Shown here: in pieces, positions 52,067 through 56,516 of the stretch | Numbering within the stretch: position 1 is the stretch's first letter | How the letters are laid out: the number at the start of each line of letters is the position of its first letter | Assembly: GCA_026417555.1 (NCBI GenBank) | Contig: JAOADA010000008.1 | Span: 1-56,516, forward strand | Origin: Brevinematales bacterium | GTDB lineage: Bacteria > Spirochaetota > Brevinematia > Brevinematales > Thermospiraceae | Length of the DNA: 56,516 bases | Direction of reading: 5' to 3' | The notes under the pieces: generated by a model | What the model was told of the DNA's origin: nothing | Seen by the model: only the letters and a program-made list of their open reading frames with translations | Database searches by the model: none | Program-made: the position numbers and the translations under genes

Positions 52067-53452
52067 CTATGACCTCCCATAATTGTCTGTCACACGCTCA
52101 ATATCATCCTCCCCAAGATACTCTCCATTCTGAACCTCGATCATCTCAAGAGGAATCTTGCCTGGATTAGAGAGTCGATGAAGAGCAGATTTTGGGACAT
52201 AGACACTCTCGTTTTCGTGAACAAACTGCTGTTTGCCCTCAATCTCCACAAGGGCTGTTCCTTTCACGACAATCCAGTGTTCGCTTCGGTGTTGATGTCG
52301 TTGCAAGCTCAAGGCTGCCCCTACATTCACCACGATTTTTTTAATCTTGTAACGATCAGCCTCCTCAAGGACGGTATACGACCCCCACGGCCTGTACACT
52401 GTTACGTGTTCACTCACCTCTGGCCGCTTTTGGGACGCAAGAAGTTGTACCATATCCTTTACCTTCTGTGTCTGGTGCCTATTTGCAATCAAAATAGCAT
52501 CCTCTGTCTCTACAACCACCAGGTCATTCACCCCAATCAAGGCAGTGAGATGCTTTTTTGAAAGCACAAGACTCCTTTTGGTATCCAGACACACCACATC
52601 CCCAGACGTCGCATTGCCATGCTCATCTGGCGAGAAAAGATCATATACCGAATCCCAAGAGCCCACATCGTTCCACAAAACATTTAACCTATAACAGAGA
52701 ATATTAGATGCCTTTTCCATCACTCCATAGTCAATAGAGATACTCGGAAGCTCACTATACCGTTTCACCATCTCCTGATAATCCAAGGTGGTGATGGCCT
52801 GATAAAGTTCTGGCATATACGTCTCAAAAGCCTCGAGAATCACCCGAAGAGAAAAGAGAAACATCCCCGCATTCCAAAGATAATTGCCATCCTGGAGATA
52901 CTGCTCTGCCGTTTCCCGATTGGGTTTCTCAACAAAACGGTGTACCTGGTACACATCCTCGCGTTTCTGTTTCCCCAATTGAATGTATCCGTATCCCGTC
53001 TCAGGCCTTGTGGGCACAATCCCAAACGTCACAATATGAGTACGTGCCTCTTTCTCTACGGATTGCACTGCCTCTGCAAACACAGATACTGGATCTATCA
53101 CATGATCCGATGGGGAAAAAAACACGACCGTTTCCGGATCATACCCCTTTTCCAAAAGATACTTCACTGTCAGGGCTATCGCCGGCGCTGTATTCCTTCC
53201 CATGGGTTCAAGCACAAGGTTGGTAAATTCACACCCAAACACTTGGCACAAATGATCCATAATGGTAAACCGATACTGCTGCCCTGCAACCACATAAATC
53301 TCCTCAAGAGGAGAAAGCGCTCGAAGCCTCTCTGCTGTCATCTGGAGAAGACTCTTGTTACCCACCAAGCTCAAAAACTGCTTGGGAAAATTCTGCCGGG
53401 AATAGGGCCAAAGCCGAGTACCACTCCCACCCGCAAGAATAATAGAAACCAT
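52067..53452 (-). CDS. manC: Bifunctional mannose-1-phosphate guanylyltransferase / mannose-6-phosphate isomerase
   Basis: The 461-residue protein has the two-domain layout of ManC/AlgA. The nucleotidyltransferase (about 1-340) has LAGGSGTRLWPYSRQNFPKQ (6-25 region) and FVEKPN. The type II phosphomannose isomerase cupin (about 345-455) has RPWGSYTVLEEADRYKIKKI, QRHQHRSEHWIVVKG and ENESVYVPKSALHRLSNPG. Together they turn fructose-6-phosphate (via a mutase) into GDP-mannose for surface glycans. Strong promoter at 53482-53510; first gene of a three-gene unit. Confidence 0.95.
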   Translation of the reverse strand: MVSIILAGGSGTRLWPYSRQNFPKQFLSLVGNKSLLQMTAERLRALSPLEEIYVVAGQQYRFTIMDHLCQVFGCEFTNLVLEPMGRNTAPAIALTVKYLLEKGYDPETVVFFSPSDHVIDPVSVFAEAVQSVEKEARTHIVTFGIVPTRPETGYGYIQLGKQKREDVYQVHRFVEKPNRETAEQYLQDGNYLWNAGMFLFSLRVILEAFETYMPELYQAITTLDYQEMVKRYSELPSISIDYGVMEKASNILCYRLNVLWNDVGSWDSVYDLFSPDEHGNATSGDVVCLDTKRSLVLSKKHLTALIGVNDLVVVETEDAILIANRHQTQKVKDMVQLLASQKRPEVSEHVTVYRPWGSYTVLEEADRYKIKKIVVNVGAALSLQRHQHRSEHWIVVKGTALVEIEGKQQFVHENESVYVPKSALHRLSNPGKIPLEMIEVQNGEYLGEDDIERVTDNYGRS

Positions 53453-53481: not shown

Positions 53482-53510
53482 ATTGTAAAGGGAAGAAACA
53501 AAGCTTGCAA
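53482..53510 (-). promoter_or_regulatory. Sigma-70-type promoter of the manC operon
   Basis: Read on the minus strand: TTGCAA (53510-53505), 17-base spacer, TACAAT (53487-53482), 29 bases before the ATG. Confidence 0.78.
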
Positions 53511-53528: not shown

Positions 53529-56303
53529 TCACAGAAGCCCATGATACCGTTGAATAATCTGATAGCGTTTTGATACCCCCAATTTCTTGAAGATCCGTTT
53601 GAGGTGCCCCTTGACAGTTTCCTCAGAGATTTCTTGAAGAGTTGCAATTTCAGCATTGGTTTTTCCCTGAACAAGCAAGACAAGAATCTTGCGTTCTGTC
53701 TCTGTGAGAGAAAAAAGTTCTGGCATTTGCTGACGAGGGAAAGGAGGTGTGGTGAGAACCTCTTTCCCCTCCCGCTGAATCTCTTTCTGAATCCCCTGAA
53801 GTGTTTCTGTAAAAAGCGACAATTGATGGAGAAAAAGTGGAAGCATCTCTTTGTCAGGTGAAGAACCCTCACCATCAAAGAAAAACAGCATAGCATGCTC
53901 TTCAAAAACAAAGAGATACACTTCCTTGAAAAAGACTTCTTCCCGCTTATTTCGAAGATACGCTGTCACGACGGTATATGACGGGGGAGAAGAAAAACGG
54001 ATCTGTTTTGCAAGACCACTTTCTTTGATCATTTGAGAAAGAAACTGCCCATGAGGGGCCTGAAAGTGAAAAACCTCAAAAATCACGGGGTGCCATTCCA
54101 CAACCTGAAACTCTTTATCAATGATCACCCACGGTACTGGAAACGTATACAACATGTTTCTCATCACTTGTTTGGTATCTGTATGATTGAAAAACCACCC
54201 AAAGACGAGATACAAAAGAGGATACCTCGGTACTACGATGACCGTTCCATCACCTTTATAAGAAAAAGAACTCACCTCTTGGGGAGGAGGGGATGGCAAA
54301 GGAAAAGAAAAAGCCATCTCCTGGGCCTTACTGTTCGCAAAGAGCTGGTGCCCATACTTATCCATCACCACCACAGGTATAGGCCAGGAGGCAACCCACT
54401 CCCACTGTTTCTCAAAGAGGCAAAACTCAGGAGGAAAGATTGTCAAAACAAGATAGACACGACCCTCAAAAGAGAGGCGATACCCCTGCATAACCAACCA
54501 CACATTTTCCCTCTCAACAGGACACGGTAAAGAAAACGAAAAAAACTGGCTCTTCTCTTGGGAAAGAAGTTCCTTAAAAGCAAAATAAATATCCTTGGCA
54601 TAGGGATCCCCAATCTTTTCTAAAAAAGCCGTAAGTCGATTGTGTGCCAAGGGAAAAAGATCCTCAAATCTTTTGTTCCAACGATGAAGGCTCATACTTT
54701 CTACGTCAACAACTACCATAGCCAGGGGTGACTGATCAAACAACAGAGAAAAATCCTGCCGATAAGCCAAAAGATCACTTCGCATGAGTATCAACTGTGA
54801 CACATCCCTTCCAATGCACCGATACCCTTCTCTATGCCCATCCCTCATCAGAGGAGTAGACACCACCTCAAGAAGAACTGAATGCTCTCCCCTCTGAAGC
54901 GAAAGCAAATGTCCTGTGAGTCTCCCCTCTGATTGCTGCAGCGCCCTCTTTAAGATAAAAAAGGCCTCCTTCCCAATAATAGGTTCCATCGATTTTTTTA
55001 CCGCGTCTTCAGGGGCAATACCAAGCAAACTTTCAATACGAGGTGAAGTATAGGTAATCACAAGATTGTTGTCCATCTCCCAAATCCAATCTGAGAGATT
55101 TTCCACAAGATCCCGATATTTTTTTTGCTGAATCTCATACAGATGCACCAGCTGAGCCTTCTGATGGCTCTCTTTTTTCAGGGCCACCACCGTCTCTTGA
55201 AGTTTTCGGTTACTCTGGGCCAAATATCCCTTGAGAAGTCTGTTGGTATTTTGATAAAACTGATAAAGACTTTTGTCTAGGTATATCTCCTTAAACAACT
55301 CCCAACACTCCACCATAAGATACACCACAAGCCCCAAAACAATCCCCCAAGGCGCCAGAGGAGACCATTCTGTCCACACCCCCATCATCTCCCAGAAGAA
55401 AACAATCCAGGAAACAAGAAAAAACAAATGCCAGGGAAGAAACTTGCCCCTCTCAGAAAGTTGATAATAAAAAATCAAAAGAATCAAATTGAAGTGGATA
55501 GCCACCCCAAACAGAAAAAAACCTATCACCGGAGAAACAATCCCGGCAATTGCCATTCCCACCGCCAAAAGAAGAAAAAGACCATGCAAAAGAAGCATGT
55601 CTGGCCGCCTTAGTTCTGGATGCATCACCAGCTGATACCCTGTCCAGGAACACCCAAATACACCCATCATCACCAACATAAACGAGAGGGCATGTTCCCC
55701 AGGAAAAATCACACAATACGTCAAAATCCCAAGGAACAAAAAATTCAACGTTTTCCACAAACGAACCATGTCCTTTCTTCGGAAAGCCCACACCCCATAC
55801 CAACCCCAAAAAAAAGAAAAAAGAATGCCAATCACCATGACATGTGTAGAAACAATCATCGTCTTCTGAAAGAATTGCTCCGCTTCGATCACCCTAGGAA
55901 AAATCACCAGCGGATGACCTTCCAGTTCTACATCCAAAACAAGAGATGAAATCCCCACCGGAAGAAAAAAAGAGGTTTTCCCAACCTTTTCATACCCCCA
56001 AAAAGGAAGATTGTTCGTATCATAAAAAAACACCTGCTTTACTCTCACCCATCGAGTTCCAGTAAAAAAAACATAATTTTTTTCTCTCTGAAGACCCTGT
56101 ACCTCAAGCCGAAGCCACTGTCTTTCTTTTAGCCATCCAGAAAAAAAGAAATCCTTGGAAAGACGACGAGCAGGTATGCCCCGAATAAAAACACTCTCTT
56201 TCTGCCCATCCTTTGGATCAAGCAGATACACAGACGTCTCTACCCCATACCCAAAAGAAAGCCAACCAAAAATCAAGCACCAAAATACACACCCCTTTCT
56301 CAT
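53529..56303 (-). CDS. Membrane-bound LuxR-type regulator: 7TM receptor, PAS tandem, HTH
   Basis: A 924-residue single-chain receptor. Signal peptide about 1-20; periplasmic beta domain 21-145; seven TM helices between about 148 and 340, in the manner of 7TMR-DISM receptors; coiled coil about 350-395. PAS domains start near 400 (ENLSDWIWEMDNNLVITYTS), 520 (FDQSPLAMVVVDVESM), 635 (PIPVVVMDKYGHQLFANS) and 715 (FPVPWVIIDKEFQVVEW). The C-terminus (about 864-922) is a LuxR/GerE helix-turn-helix: LTETERKILVLLVQGKTNAE and ETVKGHLKRIFKKLGVSKR. There is no kinase or receiver, so the DNA-binding domain would act while tethered to the membrane, or after proteolysis. Promoter at 56310-56338 leaves almost no leader. 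manC lies downstream. Confidence 0.9.
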   Translation of the reverse strand: MRKGCVFWCLIFGWLSFGYGVETSVYLLDPKDGQKESVFIRGIPARRLSKDFFFSGWLKERQWLRLEVQGLQREKNYVFFTGTRWVRVKQVFFYDTNNLPFWGYEKVGKTSFFLPVGISSLVLDVELEGHPLVIFPRVIEAEQFFQKTMIVSTHVMVIGILFSFFWGWYGVWAFRRKDMVRLWKTLNFLFLGILTYCVIFPGEHALSFMLVMMGVFGCSWTGYQLVMHPELRRPDMLLLHGLFLLLAVGMAIAGIVSPVIGFFLFGVAIHFNLILLIFYYQLSERGKFLPWHLFFLVSWIVFFWEMMGVWTEWSPLAPWGIVLGLVVYLMVECWELFKEIYLDKSLYQFYQNTNRLLKGYLAQSNRKLQETVVALKKESHQKAQLVHLYEIQQKKYRDLVENLSDWIWEMDNNLVITYTSPRIESLLGIAPEDAVKKSMEPIIGKEAFFILKRALQQSEGRLTGHLLSLQRGEHSVLLEVVSTPLMRDGHREGYRCIGRDVSQLILMRSDLLAYRQDFSLLFDQSPLAMVVVDVESMSLHRWNKRFEDLFPLAHNRLTAFLEKIGDPYAKDIYFAFKELLSQEKSQFFSFSLPCPVERENVWLVMQGYRLSFEGRVYLVLTIFPPEFCLFEKQWEWVASWPIPVVVMDKYGHQLFANSKAQEMAFSFPLPSPPPQEVSSFSYKGDGTVIVVPRYPLLYLVFGWFFNHTDTKQVMRNMLYTFPVPWVIIDKEFQVVEWHPVIFEVFHFQAPHGQFLSQMIKESGLAKQIRFSSPPSYTVVTAYLRNKREEVFFKEVYLFVFEEHAMLFFFDGEGSSPDKEMLPLFLHQLSLFTETLQGIQKEIQREGKEVLTTPPFPRQQMPELFSLTETERKILVLLVQGKTNAEIATLQEISEETVKGHLKRIFKKLGVSKRYQIIQRYHGLL

Positions 56304-56309
56304 AGGTAT

Positions 56310-56338
56310 ATTGTATCCTCATATCCTCAAATTGTCAA
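56310..56338 (-). promoter_or_regulatory. Consensus promoter abutting the 924-residue regulator gene
   Basis: Read on the minus strand: perfect TTGACA (56338-56333), 17-base spacer, TACAAT (56315-56310). Only six bases (ATACCT) separate the -10 box from the ATG at 56303, so transcription should begin at or next to the start codon. Confidence 0.75.
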
Positions 56339-56439: not shown

Positions 56440-56516
56440 CACTCTCCCTTCAAAATCACTTCTCAAAAAAAACGAGAGGGCTTTGCCTCAAAGCCCTCTC
56501 ATTCATACCATAAAAC
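56440..56516. repeat. 77-base exact repeat, copy B, at the window end
   Basis: Identical to 10340-10416 and same orientation; it runs to the last base of the window. It includes the same hairpin, which on the minus strand would end transcription of a gene lying beyond the right edge. Confidence 0.95.

Follow-up and report, generated by a model that had tools for sequence, protein, structure and literature searches.

A predicted seven-helix membrane receptor joined to PAS-type units and a LuxR DNA-binding domain in a Brevinematales spirochaete

Most bacterial seven-transmembrane (7TM) receptors signal by way of kinases, cyclases, phosphatases or MCP domains, and a gene in a Brevinematales spirochaete (2.04 Mb assembly in 33 contigs; GCA_026417555.1) raises the question of whether such a receptor may address DNA by itself. 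The gene occupies positions 53529–56303 of the window, by which we mean the whole 56,516-nucleotide stretch of contig JAOADA010000008.1 that was analysed; it lies on the minus strand, as do all features given below by window coordinates. It is a single intact open reading frame of 924 codons plus a stop, beginning with ATG. A preliminary description of this DNA had proposed a large one-component system made of a signal peptide, a beta ectodomain, seven transmembrane (TM) helices, a coiled coil, PAS-like units and a LuxR helix-turn-helix (HTH), with no kinase or receiver. Each part of that layout was recovered. Pfam matched GerE and PAS above their cut-offs, with NCBIfam in agreement, and neither collection gave a kinase, receiver, GGDEF or PP2C domain anywhere in the 924 residues, so that a periplasmic/7TM input and a DNA-binding output are predicted to share one chain with no phosphorelay domain. 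Compared with an ortholog of 70% identity, the frame differs at 0.26, 0.15 and 0.53 of first, second and third codon positions, respectively; as third positions change most, the frame is under constraint at the protein level. From its sequence, we consider it very probable that the gene encodes a real, conserved and large membrane-integrated LuxR-type one-component regulator.

The N-terminal half of the protein has the predicted features of a membrane receptor. Residues 1–20 (56244–56303) resemble a signal peptide, with a hydrophobic segment at residues 5–23 following M-R-K, and the corresponding segment of the more distant ortholog (genome G001) is hydrophobic as well. Residues 21–147 (55863–56243) form a predicted periplasmic ectodomain that has no Pfam match, is 39% identical to that of the G001 ortholog and is beta-rich in a low-confidence AF2 model. 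Seven TM helices are predicted in residues 148–341 (55281–55862) from hydropathy, AF2 and positive-inside loops. The hydropathy scan showed the hydrophobic N-terminal segment and, after it, six clear TM segments, and AF2 gave seven long helices (148–175, 179–199, 205–227, 234–256, 258–283, 289–310 and 317–341), the seventh coming from AF2 secondary structure and not being among the six clear hydropathy segments. The full-length AF2 model was built from two input sequences and has a mean pLDDT of 39, too poor to decide folds, with most TM helices at about 45–74 and the last one below 45. Loop 1 has four lysine and arginine residues and loops 3 and 5 have two each, while loops 2, 4 and 6 have none; as both orthologs share this bias, the odd-numbered loops come out on the inside in each of the three proteins. 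The ectodomain is therefore expected to lie outside and the PAS chain and HTH inside. After TM7, a cytoplasmic coiled-coil or signalling helix is predicted at residues 342–393 (55125–55280), where the low-confidence model has long helices at 344–376 and 382–416. This coil is the most conserved segment of the protein, with 71% identity to G001 and 92% to the closer congener, G002.

The coil leads into a chain of PAS-type units. For PAS1 (residues 394–505; 54789–55124) the assignment is certain by profile matching: Pfam PAS matches residues 395–501 with an E value of 5.8e-11 and 42.8 bits against a cut-off of 22.6, TIGR00229 matches at 5.8e-13, and hhalign against a reference profile of 80 PAS domains from other spirochaete proteins, from which the regulator family was excluded, gives P = 2e-31. 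The units that follow are divergent. PAS2 (517–618; 54450–54755) has a sub-threshold PAS_8 match of 4.3e-4 and an hhalign P of 2.4e-5. Neither PAS3 nor PAS4 is matched in a Pfam search; hhalign gives P = 1.7e-5 over 28 columns for PAS3 (629–708; 54180–54419), which at about 80 residues is short and probably degenerate, and P = 4.3e-5 over 38 columns for PAS4 (709–812; 53868–54179). Each of the three is aligned in register with the beginning of the PAS fold, not one of 150 column shuffles came up to the score observed for any of them, and control segments of the same protein (ectodomain, TM and linker) gave P values of 0.03–0.75. An AF2 model of PAS2–PAS4 places strands and helices of PAS4 in a PAS-like order, although with two input sequences and a pLDDT of 53 the folds are not confidently modelled. 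A Foldseek search with this model returned mostly PAS proteins (HIF/ARNT, FixL, DosP, TraJ and PpsR), with a best E value of 2.2e-3 and none at 0.001, a list that is supportive of a PAS fold but not proof of it. Comparing the regulator's units among themselves, for which the profiles are thin, gave no signal. By these comparisons the regulator carries four PAS-type units, as had been proposed, but unevenly so, with PAS1 firm and PAS2–PAS4 resting on hhalign and the shuffles.

At its C terminus the protein has a predicted DNA-binding output. A variable helical linker (residues 813–861; 53721–53867), with 27–35% identity to its orthologs and an AF2 helix at 820–848, precedes a LuxR/GerE HTH (862–921; 53541–53720) in which Pfam GerE matches residues 865–918 with an E value of 2.5e-15 and 56.3 bits against a cut-off of 23.5. 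The orthologs also pass this cut-off, and the solved relatives of the domain are DNA-binding structures of the GerE/NarL type (GerE, VraR, NarL and VpsT). GerE, and not a non-DNA-binding domain, is thus the best match of the C terminus, and the HTH appears intact. The same genome encodes a soluble multi-PAS LuxR protein of 433 residues (L005) that is 31% identical to the last 90 residues of the regulator; the match spans linker and HTH, the region upstream in L005 has weak PAS-like matches, and unlike the regulator L005 has no membrane part. It is plausible that the output half arose by fusion of an L005-like soluble regulator to a 7TM receptor.

Orthologs in the two congeners show the same fusion, indicating that HTH and membrane part belong to one polypeptide. 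The G001 ortholog has the same length, 924 residues, and is 46% identical with an identical domain fusion; the HTH is accordingly not on a separate polypeptide. The G002 ortholog (70% identical) has 814 residues and lacks its N terminus at a contig end. Identity to G001 and G002, respectively, is 67 and 87% in the HTH, 57 and 76% in PAS1, 52 and 67% in PAS4, 50 and 72% in the 7TM region, 33 and 67% in PAS2, 25 and 69% in PAS3, and 27 and 35% in the linker. When 393 spirochaete genomes were searched by alignment, full-length relatives came only from the three genomes of the genus, the other matches centring on PAS1 or the HTH. A pattern scan of the GTDB collection gave the G002 species only, a search of plasmids gave domain-level matches only, and a 70% identical copy is carried by 'Brevinematales bacterium isolate Ch60'.

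How might such a protein work? We regard it as highly likely, on the evidence above, that it is a membrane-integrated one-component transcription regulator that acts on DNA from the membrane. A ligand in the periplasm or the membrane would be sensed by the ectodomain and 7TM region, and in a dimer the signal would then travel down the strongly conserved coiled coil to PAS1 and on along the PAS chain, where PAS2–PAS4 may be modulatory and the chain may add cytoplasmic input. By analogy with comparable systems, the two HTH domains would then be freed or paired and bind target promoters while the regulator stays in the membrane. A signal from outside or from the membrane would in this way probably be turned directly into gene control.

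The origin of the receptor half is less clear-cut. The preliminary description had set it beside the 7TMR-DISM receptors (PF07695 with PF07696 or DISMED1), whose layout of ectodomain, 7TM, coiled coil and output it shares, including, by prediction, seven helices after a periplasmic domain and a C terminus inside. It differs from them in its PAS–LuxR output, in a 7TM region that fails both profile and profile–profile tests and in an ectodomain that fails PF07696; in the low-confidence AF2 model the ectodomain is beta-rich. No workable threshold gave a match of PF07695 or PF07696 to the regulator, both were silent on its orthologs and its N-terminal third, and a genome-wide HMM search of the host for PF07695 recovered other loci only. 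In hhalign, the regulator's 7TM region, queried with a profile of only three sequences, scored 13.5 against 31 DISM segments, with a shuffle mean of 13.3 and 33 of 80 shuffles reaching 13.5; true DISM members from its own genus, used as positive controls, scored 98–99% in the same comparison. Membership is thus unsupported by Pfam, by the genome-wide search and by profile–profile comparison, which stands at chance level. It may be, at less than even probability, that ectodomain and 7TM make up a receptor family not yet described, confined to the genus and without kinship to 7TMR-DISM, which with four serial PAS units would send a periplasmic or membrane signal straight to a membrane-tethered LuxR HTH. 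At a similar, slightly lower probability, the protein is a genuine 7TMR-DISM receptor that has diverged strongly and traded its output for PAS–LuxR, an ancestry that would be compatible with the one-component mechanism. The common topology speaks for it, as do the occurrence of 7TMR-DISM proteins in 28 of 60 genomes of the phylum, the three such loci above cut-off in the host genome and the existence in the same order of a DISM-like 7TM region joined to PAS–LuxR (P0004, below); the silent profiles and the chance-level alignment speak against it. In the literature covered, which did not include the founding 7TMR-DISM paper, we found no paper joining 7TMR-DISM to LuxR.

What the regulator controls was approached through its neighbourhood. 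Its own promoter is predicted at 56310–56338 (TTGACA-17-TACAAT, 11 of 12 consensus matches). Because the ATG follows the −10 hexamer after six bases, or after seven in G001, which has the same hexamers and spacing (the counterpart region is L041:11518-11582), the mRNA is probably leaderless. A strong terminator-like hairpin upstream (56470–56504; a 16-bp stem with a T-run), which would end the preceding unit, suggests that the gene is probably its own transcription unit. Downstream lies manC (GMP/PMI; 52067–53452; TIGR01479, E = 3e-166), with a predicted promoter in the 79-bp gap (53482–53510; TTGCAA-17-TACAAT) that is also found before manC in the congeners (TTGAAA/TTGCAA-17-TACAAT in G002 and G001).

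That the regulator is a local controller of the downstream manC–outer-membrane-protein–lipoprotein operon, as had been suggested, would be compatible with one-component action on DNA but is unlikely. The adjacency itself stands, in the window species and in G002 only: manC begins 79 bp past the regulator gene, on the same strand and behind a promoter of its own, the gene order is kept in G002, and TM-LuxR proteins of Eggerthella lenta control neighbouring genes (PMC9734109). Synteny beyond these two species argues the other way. In G001 about 860 kb separate the manC–outer-membrane-protein–lipoprotein genes (about 0.30 Mb) from the regulator (1.16 Mb); the manC promoter form is kept there, and the G001 regulator has lolCDE-like ABC genes on one side and an amylase gene on the other (gene names assigned by eye). 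Nor did the motif expected to be shared at the manC promoter appear, there being no operator motif common to the manC and regulator promoters by eye. The only palindrome, in the G001 manC promoter just upstream of L122 position 4171, is a perfect GCAAGAAG-TTT-CTTCTTGC between −35 and −10, and it is absent from the other two species. Outside two species the neighbourhood therefore lends no weight to manC control, while control in trans is possible. The G001 manC gene (L122:4171-5516; G001:C1:300170-301512) is split over two frames by a frameshift or an assembly error.

It is very unlikely that the HTH half works only once it is free of the membrane, either cleaved off by regulated proteolysis or made from an internal transcript, and then serves as a soluble PAS–LuxR factor. 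Some membrane-bound regulators are known to be released by proteolysis, the gene contains a promoter-like site (TGGACA-17-TATACT) at 55075–55047 and the soluble multi-PAS relative shows a half of this kind existing by itself, but promoter-like matches in the region are at chance (5 found against 3.8 ± 2.3 expected), no protease site was identified in the regulator, and the conservation of the coil between TM7 and PAS1 above all other segments suggests mechanical coupling.

The preferred reading, a regulator that acts from the membrane, can be set beside known systems. Like the regulator, ToxR and CadC run in one chain from periplasm to DNA, but in reversed domain order, with an N-terminal OmpR-type winged HTH, a single TM helix and a C-terminal periplasmic domain. 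Among spirochaetes, proteins of about 310–340 residues (L003 in the host genome; L023, L025, L026 and L034 in others) combine 6–7 predicted TM segments with a LuxR HTH; they are one third of the regulator's size and have neither its large ectodomain nor its PAS units. In the host genome, the gene for a 325-residue 7TM–LuxR protein (L125:2532-3509; G000:C28) begins within the end of a glycogen/starch synthase-like gene. LuxR domains occur in other settings in this order. A 318-residue protein of the host genome (L124:4832-5788; about 219331-220287 on G000:C27, plus strand) is an unusual fusion in which an ABC-transporter ATPase domain (PF00005, 4.1e-11) is followed by a LuxR HTH (4e-16) at the C terminus, with sugar ABC transporter genes nearby. 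Several large soluble proteins in one family of Brevinematales (L078, L081 and L082, in G004 and G007) begin, by eye, with a LacI-type sugar-binding-like region and end in a LuxR HTH.

The closest counterpart in layout is P0004, a 657-residue protein from another genus of the same order (G006:C51:18616-20586; L088:1617-3587), whose equivalent in G003 is in two halves on two contigs. Like the regulator it combines a signal peptide, ectodomain, 7TM, coil, PAS and LuxR HTH with no kinase or receiver. It has one PAS unit as against four, and homology links its ectodomain and 7TM to MCP-type receptors with 7TMR-DISM matches: over roughly the first 400 residues it shows 25–32% identity to proteins from other families of the phylum, receptors that in many cases terminate in MCP-type helices (a reading that comes from Pfam for L101 and was made by eye for the rest). 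As L101 has a 7TMR-DISM_7TM match above cut-off and an MCP output, this kinship makes P0004 look like a member of the DISM lineage with a PAS–LuxR output. Its 7TM region has no detectable similarity to that of the regulator, which suggests that the 7TM–PAS–LuxR layout arose at least twice. In the regulator and in the apparently independent P0004, a 7TM receptor would feed straight into a LuxR DNA-binding domain, suggesting that one-component signalling from receptor to DNA evolved more than once in spirochaetes. With input and output on one chain, ligand and regulon could be identified by reporter fusions.

The idea that one-component regulators in the membrane are always of simpler layout was too strong given P0004 and the LuxR regulators with 10–12 TM helices, an established family in Coriobacteriia (PMC9734109). 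In Eggerthella lenta, genetic work showed that the 12-TM members DadR, CadR and HcdR switch on their neighbouring genes when they respond to substrates. These proteins share with the regulator a multi-spanning membrane domain and a C-terminal LuxR HTH, have 10–12 helices with no large ectodomain or PAS chain described in the part of that paper considered here, and usually lie beside the genes that they control. With seven predicted helices the regulator does not belong to that family, but it broadens the theme of membrane-bound LuxR proteins familiar from Coriobacteriia. Its exact design is new; the general principle has precedents.
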